A DNA stretch of 64,000 bases from Hyphomicrobiales bacterium. Its GTDB lineage: Bacteria; Pseudomonadota; Alphaproteobacteria; Rhizobiales; JAJFHB01. This document shows, in pieces, positions 5,454 to 39,640 of the stretch. The stretch covers positions 124,001-188,000 of the forward strand of contig JAJFHE010000033.1 in NCBI GenBank assembly GCA_021775755.1, in the 5' to 3' direction. Within the stretch, counting starts at the first letter, position 1. Each line of letters starts with the position of its first letter. The position numbers and the translations under genes are program-made. A model generated the notes under the pieces. It was not told the DNA's origin. It made no database searches and saw only the letters and a program-made list of their open reading frames with translations.

Positions 5454-5914
5454 AATGTCTCTTCGCTAGAGATTGTCCGGTTACTGATCTGACTCGAGAT
5501 ACCAACACCCGGCGCCTCGCGTACCACACTCAAAACCCGTACACGCACCAGTAAATTCGGCGCATATGAGCCGCCAGAGTGTGTTGAAACTAGGGCATTT
5601 ACCCCAATGCCCGCAGACGATTCACGTCCCGGCGCCGCCGCAGGCTCTGTTGATCACATGTTCCGCCTGATGACAACCCACTGAACGTTAACGATTGGTT
5701 ACGAAGCACATGAAATCGCTGGCAGCGTGAGGCCGGACGTCAGGGGATATGCGCCCCTCAACGACGTCGTCATCGCCGCCTTTATCAAGCAGCCATGTCG
5801 CTACTCTCAACCGAACTCACGTCTACGCACGACTTGGTGAGCCGCCTTGCATCGGGATGCGCCCTGATCCATCTACGGTCGGACCCACTGTCGCAATCCA
5901 AAGGTATTCAAGCC
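5454..5914. promoter_or_regulatory. Divergent intergenic region upstream of tolQ and the DUF3179 gene
   Basis: About 460 bases lie between the tolQ start (minus) and the preferred start of the DUF3179 gene (plus). It must hold the tol operon promoter. TTAA-N7-TTAC at 5688-5702 resembles the alphaproteobacterial CtrA box (TTAA-N7-TTAA) with one mismatch, but such matches also occur by chance. The left copy of an imperfect direct repeat (5644-5701) overlaps this site. No convincing additional coding sequence was seen. Confidence 0.4.
5644..5701. repeat. Left copy of an imperfect direct repeat flanking the DUF3179 gene
   Basis: This stretch matches 7353-7409 with the same orientation. Both contain GCTCT, then GA(T/C)CACATGT, CTGA, CAACCCACTGA(A/G)CGTTA and CGA in the same order, about three quarters identical by eye. 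In the plus direction both also read as a short open C terminus ending in a Thr-His-stop (DHM..L...TH*), so they could be the 3' ends of two old gene copies. Confidence 0.6.
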
Positions 5915-7309
5915 GTGCACTTTGCCTCCATTCAGTTCCGTGAACTTTTCACGGCGTTGCTGATCGCCGCCACAATCGCCTTCGCACCCTCGCAGGCTTC
6001 CGCCGCCGACAGTGAGGCTGCCATTGCAAACCACAGCCGAAATCTGCTCTTCGGATCACCGCTGGAATTTCAAACATCTTTGGCAGCCTTGAATGCACGT
6101 GGCCAAACCGACGTGACGGCTATCATGATACTCGCCCTGCGTTACAGGGATAACGGCACATCCGAACTCACAGCTTCGCTCGCCGCGCTCACCGGCCACG
6201 CCGCCGGCAACTGGTTCGACTGGATGGTATGGCAGGAACAACATTCCGAACCGGCGCCACACTCAAGCTATGCCGACATCAAACTGGAACTTTTCCAACG
6301 CATTGATCCTGAGTTCCAGCGCTTCTTTCCCGATGCCGAGACCCTTGAAGAGATGCGGATCGATTTCACCGAAGTCACGTGGGGCGGTGTCAGGGTTGAC
6401 GGCATTCCGTCATTGGACAATCCGGAACTGATTTCCGGCCCCCAGGCATCCTATCTACAGGACGAAGACCTGGTGTTTGGCGTTGAGATAAACGGCGATA
6501 CCCGTGCCTATCCGTTGCGCATCATGGGCTGGCACGAAATGTTCAACGAGACTATCGGCGGTGTTCCGGTGGTGCTTGCCTACTGCACATTATGCGGTTC
6601 GGGAATATTATTCGAAACGGAAGTAGAGGGCCGTGCCGAACCGTTTGTATTCGGCTCATCCGGACTTCTTTATCGCTCAAACAAGCTGATGTTCGACCGC
6701 GAAACGAACAGTCTGTGGAACCAGTTCACCGGCCGCCCGGTATCGGGACCACTCGTCGGCAGCACCATCGAACTCAAAATACGGCCCGTCGCCATCACCA
6801 GTTGGGCAAACTGGTACACCGCACATCCAGATACCCGCGTCCTCTCTCATGAGACCGGCCACCGGCGCAACTATGGCTCAGGCGTGGTCTACCGCGATTA
6901 CTTCGCAAGCCCGGACCTGATGTTTCCCACCGTGGTTGACGAAACTCTTTTCAAGCAAAAGAGTTACGTGTTCGGTATCCGCAATGTCGCTGCGTCGAAA
7001 GCCTGGCCAATCTCCGCGTTTGCCGGCGGCGCGATCATTAATGACCGCGTGGGCGCGCGCCCGGTGGTGCTTATCGGTGACGCCGCAACGCGAACCGTGC
7101 GCGCCTACGACCGTGGAGACCGGGAGTTTTCGGCAACGGAAGATCCTCGCAGCCTTGCAAGCGATGGGGCAAGCTGGCGCATCGGCGAGGAAGCACTCGT
7201 AGGGCCGGACGGCACCACGCTTGCCCGCATTCCCGGGCATATCGCCTACTGGTTCGCGTGGAACGGTTATCTCGGTACGGAGAGCGAAATTTACCGCGTC
7301 GGCGAATAA
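5915..7309 (+). CDS. Secreted DUF3179 domain protein
   Basis: Predicted exported protein of unknown biochemical role, 464 residues from the chosen start. A GTG at 5915 with AAGG about ten bases upstream gives a clean signal peptide (FRELFTALLIAATIAFAPSQ, cleavage near ASA-AD); the longer reading from ATG 5795 would bury this peptide inside the protein. The DUF3179 domain fills the C-terminal two thirds. It includes FGVEINGDTRAYPLRIM, WHEMFNETIGG, the cysteine motif YCTLCGSG, and later SLWNQFTGRPVSGPLVG and HETGHRRNYG. The CxxC-like pair and conserved His/Glu suggest metal or redox chemistry, but none is established. It stands alone, flanked by imperfect direct repeats, in the block separating tolQ from ybgC. 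Confidence 0.85.
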   Translation: MHFASIQFRELFTALLIAATIAFAPSQASAADSEAAIANHSRNLLFGSPLEFQTSLAALNARGQTDVTAIMILALRYRDNGTSELTASLAALTGHAAGNWFDWMVWQEQHSEPAPHSSYADIKLELFQRIDPEFQRFFPDAETLEEMRIDFTEVTWGGVRVDGIPSLDNPELISGPQASYLQDEDLVFGVEINGDTRAYPLRIMGWHEMFNETIGGVPVVLAYCTLCGSGILFETEVEGRAEPFVFGSSGLLYRSNKLMFDRETNSLWNQFTGRPVSGPLVGSTIELKIRPVAITSWANWYTAHPDTRVLSHETGHRRNYGSGVVYRDYFASPDLMFPTVVDETLFKQKSYVFGIRNVAASKAWPISAFAGGAIINDRVGARPVVLIGDAATRTVRAYDRGDREFSATEDPRSLASDGASWRIGEEALVGPDGTTLARIPGHIAYWFAWNGYLGTESEIYRVGE

Positions 7310-19527: not shown

Positions 19528-19719
19528 CCAGCCTCATCCTCCGGAAATTTCTCTGCCCGGCAGACGCTTGCACATACGCCCGCCCCGGCCTCGTTTGCCC
19601 CTTATAGGCCCGGGCATTGCGAAAATCCATAGGGGCCGCATCTCTCTTCCGCACGGTTAATTCAGCATTAAGGCTGCTCGGCGATGCTGGTGCGATCAGG
19701 CCTTGTAAAAAGTGAGTAA

Positions 19720-21516: not shown

Positions 21517-21566
21517 ATGCGGAACCTCGCGTGAGGGCGTGTTGATCAGGACGCGAAGCCGCCGCA

Positions 21567-21740
21567 GCCGGTGGAGAAATTCGATCCCGGGCGCCTACGA
21601 GTGTAGGTGGGCGCCGAGTGACTGAACCCACGGGTCCAGTCAGGGTCAGCTCCCGTAAGGATCGGTAAGGCCCCGGGGATACAGTCTCCTGTCGCGCCGG
21701 GCAGCTTCGCTGGGCGTGTTGTATGCCGGGTCCGGCAAAT
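21567..21740 (-). ncRNA. ssrS: 6S RNA (ssrS)
   Basis: Regulatory RNA that in known bacteria binds the housekeeping RNA polymerase holoenzyme and mimics an open promoter. The non-coding gap lies exactly between zapA and the formyl-THF cyclo-ligase gene, the typical 6S site. On the minus strand it contains CCTTACGGGAGCTGACC, the hairpin-forming GACTGGACCCGTGGGTTCAG and GGCGCCCACCTACAC, features I associate with alphaproteobacterial 6S RNAs. The ends could pair (GCCGG near the start with CCGGC near the end). An upstream CTTGGA-N16-ATTATT could be the promoter. Both ends are approximate to about 15 bases. Confidence 0.8.
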
Positions 21741-36069: not shown

Positions 36070-36615
36070 TCAGCGCCCGCCGCCGTTCGGGCCGAACGCG
36101 GCGTGCAGAATGGACATCTGGTCGGAGACCGGATTCTGGGGCGCATCGGCTGGAGCACAGCTGTTCAACATCTCGTCGAGATGCTTGATCCTCTCGAATA
36201 GACGCTGAGAGCGCGTGATGAGATCGTTCAAAGACGCCGGCAGTTCCTCGCTGACATCGGCACGCGCAGCATCGGAGGCTTCAGCCAGGTTGATGCGGTA
36301 TTTCTCGTCCTGCGCTTCTTTCGGCGTCATTTCACCGTCTTTTACCGCGCGCTGCAAAAGCAGCCACGAGGCGAGCTGCATGAGGCGCGTGGTAAGCCGC
36401 ATGCTCTCCGTCGCATAAGCCATTGCGGCATTGCGGCCGAGCGCCCGGCTTTCCTGCCGCCCGGGCCCGTCGAGATAGGACGCGGTGAGCTCCACCAGTC
36501 CCATGCCATCCTGGAAAATTTCACTGAAAAGTTCGGATTCGGCAAATCTCGAACCGAAATCCACAGTTACGTCTTGGTGGACAGTTTCATTTCTGTTTTT
36601 TGACTCTGACATCAC
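36070..36615 (-). CDS. rcdA: DUF1465 family protein, regulator of CtrA degradation RcdA
   Basis: A 181-residue helical protein matching the DUF1465/RcdA family: FAESELFSEIFQDGMGLVEL, AYATESMRLTTRLMQLASWL and ERIKHLDEMLNS. In Caulobacter RcdA is an adaptor that helps ClpXP degrade CtrA and other cell-cycle proteins at the pole. An N-terminal polar stretch and C-terminal tail are flexible. It lies close to rpmE and upstream of DUF1192 as in rhizobia. The upstream region contains a predicted small RNA with a CtrA-like box. The assignment relies on family recall rather than a search. Confidence 0.8.
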   Translation of the reverse strand: MMSESKNRNETVHQDVTVDFGSRFAESELFSEIFQDGMGLVELTASYLDGPGRQESRALGRNAAMAYATESMRLTTRLMQLASWLLLQRAVKDGEMTPKEAQDEKYRINLAEASDAARADVSEELPASLNDLITRSQRLFERIKHLDEMLNSCAPADAPQNPVSDQMSILHAAFGPNGGGR

Positions 36616-36841: not shown

Positions 36842-36870
36842 AAAAAAGGAGCCGCGGGGGGCGCGGCTCC
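36842..36870 (-). terminator. Strong terminator of the predicted small RNA
   Basis: On the minus strand GGAGCCGCG (36870-36862), a five-base C loop, CGCGGCTCC (36856-36848) and then TTTTTT (36847-36842). Confidence 0.88.
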
Positions 36871-36940
36871 AAGGTATAACAGGGAGGCGTCAAACAGAGT
36901 GGACAGGAGCCACTCAGAAAATCCAGATGACTGGATTACG
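36842..36940 (-). ncRNA. Predicted trans-acting small RNA next to rcdA
   Basis: In a 635-base gap (36616-37250) without protein genes, the minus strand shows an ordered set of RNA elements: hairpin 1, AATCCAG-TCAT-CTGGATT (36937-36920); hairpin 2, GAGTGG-CTCCTGT-CCACTC (36915-36897), whose loop exposes CTCCT; a single-stranded GCCTCCC (within 36877-36892); and a strong terminator (36870-36842). Exposed CTCC motifs able to pair with ribosome-binding sites are a hallmark of rhizobial Hfq-dependent small RNAs. A CtrA-like box lies just upstream (36965-36979). The 5' end is approximate. The rest of the gap, 36616-36841, shows nothing recognisable. Confidence 0.6.
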
Positions 36941-36964
36941 CATGGTTAAGATAAGGAAAACTCA

Positions 36965-36979
36965 CTAACAAAAGGTTAA
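36965..36979 (-). promoter_or_regulatory. CtrA-like box upstream of the predicted small RNA
   Basis: The minus strand reads TTAA-CCTTTTG-TTAG, one mismatch from the CtrA consensus TTAA-N7-TTAA. It would lie about 25-40 bases upstream of the predicted RNA start, overlapping a -35 position. A further TTAA lies a few bases upstream. Chance occurrence is possible in this AT-rich stretch. Confidence 0.4.
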
Positions 36980-37088
36980 CCGCATACTTAACACGGTTTC
37001 TTTTTTGCAAACGCTCACGTCAAGAATGTCCCACAACGCGACAAATGAGCTGTTTATCAACTACCTTGCGTAAACGTAAGTTCATGAC

Positions 37089-37254
37089 CTAGAACCCCTT
37101 TGATGAGTTCGGATTCACTTTGATGGATCAAATCAGTTCGACCGGTAAGGCGCGGTGCGCAGCGCGTTGCGGGGCATCGGGCAAGCGGCGCAACGTTGCC
37201 GGCGGACTGATTTGATCCACCAAAGTGAATCCGAACTCATCAAAGGAGTTCTAG
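37089..37254. repeat. Inverted-repeat element with 49-bp arms (MITE-like)
   Basis: Left arm 37089-37137 and right arm 37206-37254 are reverse complements with only two mismatches in 49 bases; both ends carry CTAG and the core TTCGGATTCACTTTG. The 68-base centre is GC-rich and non-coding. The right end overlaps the TAG stop of the DUF1192 gene. Size, long terminal inverted repeats and lack of coding content fit a non-autonomous mobile element; a very large hairpin at a transcript end is the alternative. No second copy was seen in the window. Confidence 0.8.
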
Positions 37255-37445
37255 TTACGGAAAAAGGTATCGGCGGCGCTCTTGACGTCCTGTTTAGTGT
37301 CGATCGCGACACGTAACCTGGCAATTTCCACTTCGAGAATTCCGATTCGCTCTTCAAGTTCGTCGACTGAGAGTTTATCAAGGTCTTCACCGATAACGAT
37401 GTCAGCTTTCCGTTTGGCGCCGTCGTCTTCATTGTTCGCCATCAC
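37251..37445 (-). CDS. DUF1192 family small protein
   Basis: A 64-residue protein with DELEERIGILEVEIARLRVA, a short coiled coil typical of DUF1192, a small alphaproteobacterial family with unknown role. It is located between rcdA and the quinone oxidoreductase gene, as in rhizobia. The stop codon lies inside the terminal CTAG of the inverted-repeat element, so the element either ends exactly there or replaced the original tail. Confidence 0.8.
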   Translation of the reverse strand: MMANNEDDGAKRKADIVIGEDLDKLSVDELEERIGILEVEIARLRVAIDTKQDVKSAADTFFRN

Positions 37446-37644: not shown

Positions 37645-38646
37645 ATGCCCGCAGACCTGCCCGATGAAATGACCGCAATCGAGATTACCGCCCCCGGCAA
37701 TGCGGAGGTGTTGCAGGCGCACACCATGCGGCGCCCCTATCCGGAAGAAGGCGAGTTGCTCATCAAGGTCGAGGCCGCGGGCGTCAACCGCCCCGACGTG
37801 CTGCAACGCATGGGACTTTACCCGCCACCGCCCGGCGCGCCTGAAACCCCGGGCCTTGAGATTGCCGGAACGGTTGCCGTGGCAGGCCGCGGCACCAGCC
37901 GCTACAACGAGGGCGATCGCGTGTGCGCGCTCGTTCCAGGCGGCGGCTATGCGGAATATTGCATTGCCGCGGAAGACAATGCCCTGCCCGTCCCGCACGG
38001 ATTCTCCATGCCGGAAGCCGCCGGACTACCGGAAACCTTCTTCACCGTGTGGACCAACGTCTTCCAGCGCGGCCGCCTGCAAAGCGGCGAAACGCTTCTC
38101 ATCCATGGCGGCTCGAGCGGTATCGGCACAACCGCGATCATGCTCGCCAAGGCTTTCGGCGCCACGGTTTTTGCGACCGCAGGCTCACAGGAAAAGTGCG
38201 ACGCCTGCGTGAAGCTCGGTGCCGACCGTGCGATCAACTATCTGGAGGAGGATTATGTTGACGTGATCAAGGCGGAAGCTCCCGCCCGCGGTGCCAATGT
38301 CATCCTTGATATGGTCGGCGGCGATTACATTGAGCGCAACCTCAAGGCCGCCGCGCCCGACGGCCGCGTCGTCAGCATCGCCTTCCTCAACGGCTCAACG
38401 GCGGAGGTCAATTTTATGCCGATGATGCTGAAGCGCCTGACGCTCACAGGCTCCACGCTGCGCGCCCGGTCCGTCGCCGACAAAGCCGTTATCGCGCGCG
38501 AGCTCGAGGAAAAGGTCTGGCCACTGCTCAACGATGGTGCGTTCAAGCCCGTCATCGACAGTACGTTTGCGCTTGCCGATGCCGCCGCCGCCCATGCACG
38601 AATGGAAACCAGCAAGCACATCGGCAAGATCATTCTCACCGCGTGA
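37645..38646 (+). CDS. NAD(P)H quinone oxidoreductase (zinc-free MDR family, PIG3-like)
   Basis: Medium-chain reductase of 333 residues. GroES-like N-terminal half (AAGVNRPDVLQRMGLYPPPP, GLEIAGTVA) and Rossmann half with LIHGGSSGIGTTAIMLAKAF are intact; there are no structural-zinc cysteines, as in quinone oxidoreductases. The TP53I3/PIG3-like start ITAPGNAEVLQ is clear. The physiological substrate is unknown. It is followed by trcR on the same strand after about 120 bases. Confidence 0.9.
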   Translation: MPADLPDEMTAIEITAPGNAEVLQAHTMRRPYPEEGELLIKVEAAGVNRPDVLQRMGLYPPPPGAPETPGLEIAGTVAVAGRGTSRYNEGDRVCALVPGGGYAEYCIAAEDNALPVPHGFSMPEAAGLPETFFTVWTNVFQRGRLQSGETLLIHGGSSGIGTTAIMLAKAFGATVFATAGSQEKCDACVKLGADRAINYLEEDYVDVIKAEAPARGANVILDMVGGDYIERNLKAAAPDGRVVSIAFLNGSTAEVNFMPMMLKRLTLTGSTLRARSVADKAVIARELEEKVWPLLNDGAFKPVIDSTFALADAAAAHARMETSKHIGKIILTA

Positions 38647-38728
38647 GCAAGAAAGTCATTTGCAGACGCCGCATTTCGACATATACAGACGGCATTCCCA
38701 GTTAAATCGCGGTGATTACGGGACTCGT

Positions 38729-38743
38729 GGCCCTTCGAGGGCC
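38729..38743. other. Short perfect dyad in the trcR leader
   Basis: GGCCCT-TCG-AGGGCC lies 25-40 bases upstream of the trcR ATG and just before its GGAGG. It could hide or expose the ribosome-binding site, or be an operator. The stem is only six base pairs. Confidence 0.35.
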
Positions 38744-38767
38744 CGGTGGTCTGGAGGTTATGAATCT

Positions 38768-39640
38768 ATGGCTCAAGCGCCCCTTATGCCCAAGGCGACA
38801 GCCGTCTGGCTTGTCGACAACACATCCCTGACATTCGAGCAGATTGCCGATTTCTGTCAGCTTCACGAGCTTGAGGTCAAAGGCATCGCCGATGGTGATG
38901 TCGCTCAGGGCATCCGCGGCATGGACCCGCTTGCCAACGGCCAGTTGAATCGCGACGAGTTGGAAAATGCGCAGGCCGACGCCGCTTACCGCATGAAAGT
39001 AGCGGAAAGCAAGGTCGAAATCCCTGTCGTCACCACCAAGCGGGGCCCACGCTACACGCCGGTGTCACGGCGCCAGGATCGTCCCGACGCGATTTCCTGG
39101 TTGCTGCGCAATCACCCCGAGCTTACCGATTCGCAGGTCATGAAGCTGGTCGGCACAACCAAGCCGACGATCCAGGCGATTCGCGACCGCACACACTGGA
39201 ATTCCGCAAACATCACGCCGAAAGATCCTGTGACGCTTGGACTGTGTTCGCAGACCGATCTCGACAAAGCGGTTCAGAAGGCCGCCGACAAGGCCGCGCG
39301 CGAGCGCGAAAAACTCGAGAAGGAAGCGCGCAAGGCCGGCACCCTGCTTCCCACGGCTGAAACCGTGGCGGAAGAGGTTGCAGCGGAAGAACCGCAGAGC
39401 GGACATTCCACGCTGCTGACCGCCGAATCCATGGCGGCCTCCGCAGCAGCTGCTGCTGGGGAACCGACCCGCGCGCAGGAAGCAGAAGCCGCCTTTGCGA
39501 CGGATACCAATGCCGCGGCGCAAACCGAAAGCGCGCCCGAGGAAGCCGAAGACGAGACTTACGATGTCGATTCCGTCTTTGCCAAACTTCAGGACCTGAA
39601 GCTCGATGAAACCGAAGAGGATGCCGACGACAAGGCGTGA
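38768..39640 (+). CDS. trcR: DUF1013 family cell-cycle transcriptional regulator TrcR
   Basis: A 290-residue protein. The conserved DUF1013 part (about 1-165) includes KATAVWLVDNTSLTFEQIAD, RQDRPDAISWLLRNHPELTD and VGTTKPTIQAIRDRTHWNS, which read as two helix-turn-helix-like units. The rest is a charged coiled coil followed by an Ala/Glu-rich disordered tail ending DETEEDADDKA. Annotated in related genomes as the cell-cycle regulator TrcR; that name is recalled, not tested. ATG 38768 follows GGAGG; much longer readings are rejected. Confidence 0.85.
   Translation: MAQAPLMPKATAVWLVDNTSLTFEQIADFCQLHELEVKGIADGDVAQGIRGMDPLANGQLNRDELENAQADAAYRMKVAESKVEIPVVTTKRGPRYTPVSRRQDRPDAISWLLRNHPELTDSQVMKLVGTTKPTIQAIRDRTHWNSANITPKDPVTLGLCSQTDLDKAVQKAADKAAREREKLEKEARKAGTLLPTAETVAEEVAAEEPQSGHSTLLTAESMAASAAAAAGEPTRAQEAEAAFATDTNAAAQTESAPEEAEDETYDVDSVFAKLQDLKLDETEEDADDKA

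Follow-up and report, generated by a model that had tools for sequence, protein, structure and literature searches.

A small RNA of the RF02356 family upstream of rcdA in Hyphomicrobiales is coupled to a CtrA-type box and likely controlled by CtrA

The minus strand of a 64,000-nucleotide stretch of DNA from a Hyphomicrobiales bacterium (hereafter the window) contains, just upstream of rcdA, a small RNA (sRNA) gene that is, judged by sequence comparison, a member of the already known family RF02356 and that is likely controlled by CtrA. The segment 36842-36987 was identified by cmscan as RF02356 BjrC1505 with 86.4 bits against a gathering cut-off of 50, is covered end to end by the model (positions 1-140 of 140) and is the only RF02356 match in its own genome. 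A small RNA gene had been predicted here in the initial annotation, which also proposed a comparison with Rfam and a search across the order, and the prediction is backed by the family match together with the covariation of the hairpins. RF02356 is present in 50 of 61 relatives (53 matches in these 50 genomes). Among genomes sampled from the order, 331 of 397 carry it, and among those sampled from the class 30 of 289, with 27 of these 30 outside the order; all three counts were made with strict filters, by which weak matches are lost. What appears to be new is that the RF02356 RNA and a CtrA-type box are tightly coupled across the class, even where the RNA does not lie beside rcdA. The founding paper of BjrC1505 is reportedly that of Madhugiri in 2012. 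A literature search confined mostly to journals outside subscription gave neither a function nor a regulator for RF02356 and no tie of BjrC1505 to CtrA or rcdA; it is possible that the RNA has been published under a different name, e.g., as an S. meliloti transcript number. The features of the locus are as follows.

36965..36979, minus strand: CtrA-type box TTAACCTTTTGTTAG (TTAA-N7-TTAA with one mismatch, reading TTAA-N7-TTAG), placed by motif position
36949..36954, minus strand: putative -10-like A+T-rich element TTATCT, suggested by weak A/T enrichment in 50 homologues
36842..36943, minus strand: predicted mature RNA of about 100 nt, from the box/-10 spacing, the fold and the terminator end
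36842..36987, minus strand: full-length RF02356 BjrC1505 match (cmscan)
36921..36936, minus strand: hairpin 1, ATCCAG-TCAT-CTGGAT, 5 of 6 pairs changed on both sides
36897..36915, minus strand: hairpin 2, GAGTGG-CTCCTGT-CCACTC, 5 of 6 pairs changed on both sides
36871..36896, minus strand: linker TGTTTGACGCCTCCCTGTTATACCTT, proposed seed region, contains GCCTCCC; CTCCCTG in 48 of 52 homologues
36842..36870, minus strand: Rho-independent terminator, with its stem at 36870-36848 and a run of T down to 36842; both sides changed in 6 of 9 stem pairs
36070..36615, minus strand: rcdA (DUF1465, Pfam E 5e-58), the next gene downstream, context outside the RNA
37251..37445, minus strand: DUF1192 gene (Pfam), the upstream neighbour, context

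The order of elements given in the initial annotation, i.e., the box, two perfect 6-bp hairpins, the GCCTCCC linker and a strong terminator, was found on the minus strand exactly as described, and the downstream neighbour is identified as RcdA also by its sole match to a solved structure, PDB 3CTW “RcdA” (E 2e-45). We infer that the locus is transcribed in this organism and that the 5′ end of the mature RNA lies near 36943-36938, as deduced from the spacing of box and -10-like element, the fold and the terminator end. The 5′ part of the RF02356 match includes the box and therefore probably contains promoter DNA. From the start of the box to hairpin 1 the median distance is 40 bases (rough pattern, 46 of 50 rows), and the weak, -10-like A/T enrichment of the 50 homologues lies about 26-32 bases after the box start, a spacing that would fit a promoter activated at -35. 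Several other elements were observed in the surroundings of the gene. The stretch that separates the DUF1192 gene from the promoter of the sRNA holds a 52-nt inverted repeat of 94% identity (37089-37140 and 37203-37254). This repeat has a MITE- or REP-like look and 36 genomic matches, full or partial, a number in which its own site is counted in both orientations. Another cell-cycle gene, about 1.5 kb from the sRNA, is the open reading frame 38534-39640 on the plus strand, which has the domain PF06242 (TrcR, “transcriptional cell cycle regulator”), and the window also contains a 6S RNA (RF00013, 79.8 bits; 21552-21710, minus strand). The best CtrA match of the genome (G000:C27:23099-23770) is located on the same contig as the sRNA, about 137 kb away.

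The structure of the RNA is established by comparison with its relatives. The 146-nt segment 36842-36987 folds with -45.4 kcal/mol compared to a mean of -27.4 kcal/mol for shuffled sequences (z -6.0, reached by 0 of 200 shuffles). In an alignment of 48 homologues, 16 of 21 pairs are changed on both sides, a number reached in 0 of 500 shuffles; counted as pairs and cells, the both-side changes amount to 16 pairs and 59 cells versus 5.2 pairs and 16.8 cells in the shuffles. Pairing is retained in 92.0% of the cells of the 48 homologues, compared to 36-50% when the partners are slid by 1-3 columns, and these slid controls have only 3-7 pairs with both-side changes. Compensatory changes in both hairpins, the absence of which among relatives had been set beforehand as a refutation test, are present, with 5 of 6 pairs in each, and in the terminator stem 92.1% of the cells are paired. 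The terminator loop CCCCCC of the window, in turn, is not conserved among the homologues. In the extra RF02356 copy of one genome (L071, G027:C439) the second hairpin is rebuilt with other bases.

Outside the stems, no stretch is as constant as the linker; besides CTCCCTG, GACGCCTCC is found in 46 of 52 homologues, and TCTCCCTGTTTTACCTTGAGAGCCGC is common to 94 of 96 loci that were chosen by their RcdA. Because alignment A1 leaves out the four matches without CTCCCTG (two of G020, one of G030 and the second of G051), this motif is invariant there. According to the partition function, the CUCCCUGUUAUACC part of the linker is mostly unpaired and the GACGC part is partly paired. Exposure of CTCCT at hairpin 2, to which the initial annotation had drawn attention, is seen in the window; it is no conserved element, as no more than 26 of 52 copies have a CTCCT at hairpin 2 or ahead of it.

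Concerning the CtrA-type box, the window taken alone says little, as four matches with at most one mismatch compare with 3.8 expected, which is not beyond chance, and therefore the significance of the box rests on the comparison between genomes. With the tighter pattern TTAA-N7-TTAR, two places were found (three listed matches, one being a both-strand palindrome) against 0.37 expected, and an exact TTAA-N7-TTAA occurs as a second CtrA-type box of the window at 19657-19671. Thus, the box proposed in the initial annotation is present and is significant across relatives, but not in the window by itself. Within the 61-genome set, 50 of 52 copies have TTAA-N7-TTAA with no more than one mismatch, compared to 6-22 for other spacings (N2 to N13 were compared) and a mean of 6.4 and maximum of 11 in shuffles, and the exact box occurs at 22 of 52 copies, compared to 0-4 for other spacings and a mean of 0.49 and maximum of 3 in shuffles. 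These counts use 52 of the 53 matches, with the match of G040, which is cut by a contig end, dropped, that of G025 oriented by hand, and the second match of G051 (32 bits, without box and probably spurious) kept; no box is present at the match of G004 (58 bits). Outside the order, the box is found with at most one mismatch at 19 of 20 loci, nine of them exact, while other spacings occur at 0-2 (exact) and 0-10 (one mismatch); these 20 loci were taken by rank from 29 matches listed, with the second match of G804 passed over and the nine omitted being mostly the weakest.

As the RF02356 model spans the columns of the box, copies found with it are biased toward the box, and for this reason loci chosen by RcdA were used as well. 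Among these, the box is present with at most one mismatch in 80 of 80 loci (61 exact) and in 16 of 16 Ensifer-like loci, all exact, although the 80 contigs are mostly named Rhizobiaceae and all 96 loci, being close relatives, do not count as independent. The Ensifer-like genus (g207) is probably Ensifer, as indicated by about 80% identity to pSymB of S. meliloti. Other exact TTAA spacings are found in the 80 loci as N12 in 25 and as N3 in 14 loci. Over their 967 kb there are 143 exact N7 boxes, the next spacing being N12 with 27, and 139 of the 143 (with both boxes counted) form two clusters within locus positions 5500-5899, shortly ahead of rcdA, which begins at 6001; some of the other four may be accounted for by L108, which has rcdA at another position. 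Moreover, a box-free model (R1) was run on the seven genomes of the 61-genome set that have rcdA and no RF02356 match, and gave convincing RNAs of 40-45 bits at three of the seven loci, a doubtful one of 18 bits at another and none at three. Two of the convincing RNAs have an exact box, and the third has one with two mismatches. Conservation of the box in relatives and outside the order lends comparative support to the control by CtrA that had been suggested at the outset.

It is therefore rather likely, in our view, that the RNA is a CtrA-controlled trans-acting sRNA, encoded by a stand-alone gene of the RF02356 family and pairing through its conserved linker UGACGCCUCCCUGUU. According to this model, CtrA would bind the TTAA-N7-TTA(A/G) box at the -35 position and control, most likely activate, transcription of the stand-alone gene to a trans-acting sRNA of about 100 nt, which would terminate at its own terminator, ahead of rcdA. 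The two short hairpins would present the linker UGACGCCUCCCUGUU, which may then lower the translation of target mRNAs by pairing with their purine-rich ribosome-binding regions. In this respect, the linker resembles the anti-Shine-Dalgarno segments described for other rhizobial sRNAs (PMC7143759).

The neighbourhood of rcdA offers a different reading, namely that the RNA is a cis-acting leader of rcdA, with CtrA driving rcdA from this promoter and the terminator attenuating read-through. The association with rcdA noticed in the initial annotation is indeed a real synteny, since 45 of 50 carrier genomes have a match (45 in total) on the same strand as the DUF1465 (RcdA) domain and only 160-338 bases ahead of it, and in Caulobacter rcdA is reported to be a direct CtrA target (PMC4433202). 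We nevertheless regard a leader as unlikely, as copies of RNA and box persist without an adjacent rcdA. Eight matches of the 61-genome set have no rcdA after them and seven of these carry the box (two in G020 and one each in G052, G012, G019 and G010, and the extra copy of G027), the eighth being the 32-bit match of G051. The set includes two genomes with a match and without DUF1465, and four with neither; the former are G020 (L068, L069) and G052. Beside one of the G020 copies, reading frames of rpmE and of an ABC transporter were recognised by eye. Of the 20 loci outside the order, ten have an RcdA match downstream and ten have none in the stretch read (about 1 kb each, with L254 ending 165 bases past the RNA), and the box is present at all ten of the latter, whereas L244 (G836) has rcdA, yet no box. 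Since boxes are found at copies without rcdA both in the order and outside of it, the presence of the box is tied to the RNA rather than to rcdA. A leader is also disfavoured by a separate, second exact TTAA-N7-TTAA between the terminator and rcdA in all 96 RcdA-chosen, Rhizobiaceae-type loci (L080-L175; 80 of 80 and 16 of 16), to which the second of the two clusters corresponds. In the 61-genome set, only 2 of 52 matches have an exact box in the 200 bases that follow the RNA. Because of this second box, published CtrA binding near rcdA is not assignable to the sRNA. In S. meliloti, ChIP-seq of CtrA is reported to show binding of the rcdA promoter region, and rcdA expression is given as unchanged on CtrA depletion (PMC4433202), which speaks against a leader as well. 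For S. meliloti, a CtrA motif ahead of rcdA has been described before, together with the consensus TAA-N7-TTAAC (PMC3616915), and several start sites and possible CtrA sites are described for rcdA (atu3742) of three agrobacteria (PMC10469942).

With the sRNA itself taken as real, TTAA-N7-TTAA might be used by another regulator or be a mere promoter element, as it is A/T-rich and in promoter position. We consider this improbable, as there is a strong preference for the N7 spacing, which is also that of the CtrA consensus (PMC3616915), and as each of the 14 genomes tested has a close match to CtrA. For the targets, in turn, it could be imagined that the RNA corresponds, in Rhizobiales, to CcnA, a Caulobacter noncoding RNA acting on ctrA and gcrA, of which a homologue in S. 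meliloti is described as not clearly detected (PMC8959179), and that it acts on ctrA mRNA and closes a feedback loop. GGGG stands before the start codon in all 13 ctrA leaders read (the fourteenth was not located), which would fit such an action. However, the linker and the own-genome ctrA leader (G000) pair with -14.7 kcal/mol compared to a shuffled mean of -18.2 kcal/mol, which is no better than with simple shuffles; together with the lack of conservation of the CCCCCC terminator loop of the window this makes a CcnA counterpart a quite doubtful proposal. For the own-genome rcdA leader the values are -17.2 and -18.0 kcal/mol (shuffled mean), again no better than simple shuffles. The closed cell-cycle loop through targets that was envisaged in the initial annotation is therefore not borne out, as linker pairing with both leaders does not exceed that with shuffled ones. 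Complements of the linker (CAGGGAGGCGTC, at most one mismatch) occur at 294 places in six genomes; among the 30 of these that were read by eye, six are the RNA gene itself, and no target shared before the same start codon was seen.

Returning to the CtrA-controlled trans-acting sRNA, the persistence of the box with the RNA across many families, outside the order and without rcdA points to the core cell-cycle regulon, and the RF02356 RNA is a good candidate for a missing RNA part of the CtrA cell-cycle circuit. Its promoter would offer a testable answer to the oddity that in S. meliloti CtrA is reported as bound at rcdA with rcdA unaffected (PMC4433202), and the RNA is also a candidate for the one that, in the wording of the CcnA authors, was not clearly detected in S. 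meliloti (PMC8959179). Going beyond this, we tentatively propose, with slightly less for it than against it, that RF02356 is an ancient sRNA under CtrA control that belongs to the whole class Alphaproteobacteria and mostly lies beside rcdA, yet is independent of it. Some of the CtrA occupancy published for rcdA promoters, namely occupancy without effect on rcdA, would then belong to the promoter of the RNA, and the RNA would form the RNA arm of the Rhizobiales CtrA circuit, as CcnA does in Caulobacter.

Among known sRNAs, suhB/MmgR (RF00519) likewise has CCUCCCU before the terminator, but the RNA described here reaches only 26.0 bits versus a cut-off of 41, and the 77-position model of RF00519 covers only its 3′ half. 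GspR of S. meliloti is described as an RNA of about 144 nt with three predicted stem-loops that represses ctrA (PMC5928217). It was taken at first, from its position, as an orthologue and is set apart by its locus, as it lies between SMc03844 and SMc03845, the latter being srlA, a thioredoxin-fold gene, and not between DUF1192 and rcdA. EcpR1 of S. meliloti is similar in being a broadly conserved sRNA acting on the cell cycle (PMC4414408). Identity with EcpR1 was rejected, as EcpR1 adjoins divK-pleD and has the loop UCCGCCGCAUCU, a motif that is absent from 36842-36987, the neighbours of which are rcdA and DUF1192. CcnA differs in being encoded at the replication origin, whereas the RF02356 RNA is beside rcdA, and the pairing of CcnA with the ctrA leader has no parallel in the one ctrA leader analysed here (G000), where the linker did no better than shuffles. 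Nevertheless, CcnA is, like the RF02356 RNA in the model proposed here, a noncoding RNA tied to CtrA with a C-rich contact with mRNA leaders (PMC8959179), a likeness that was judged from the described features.
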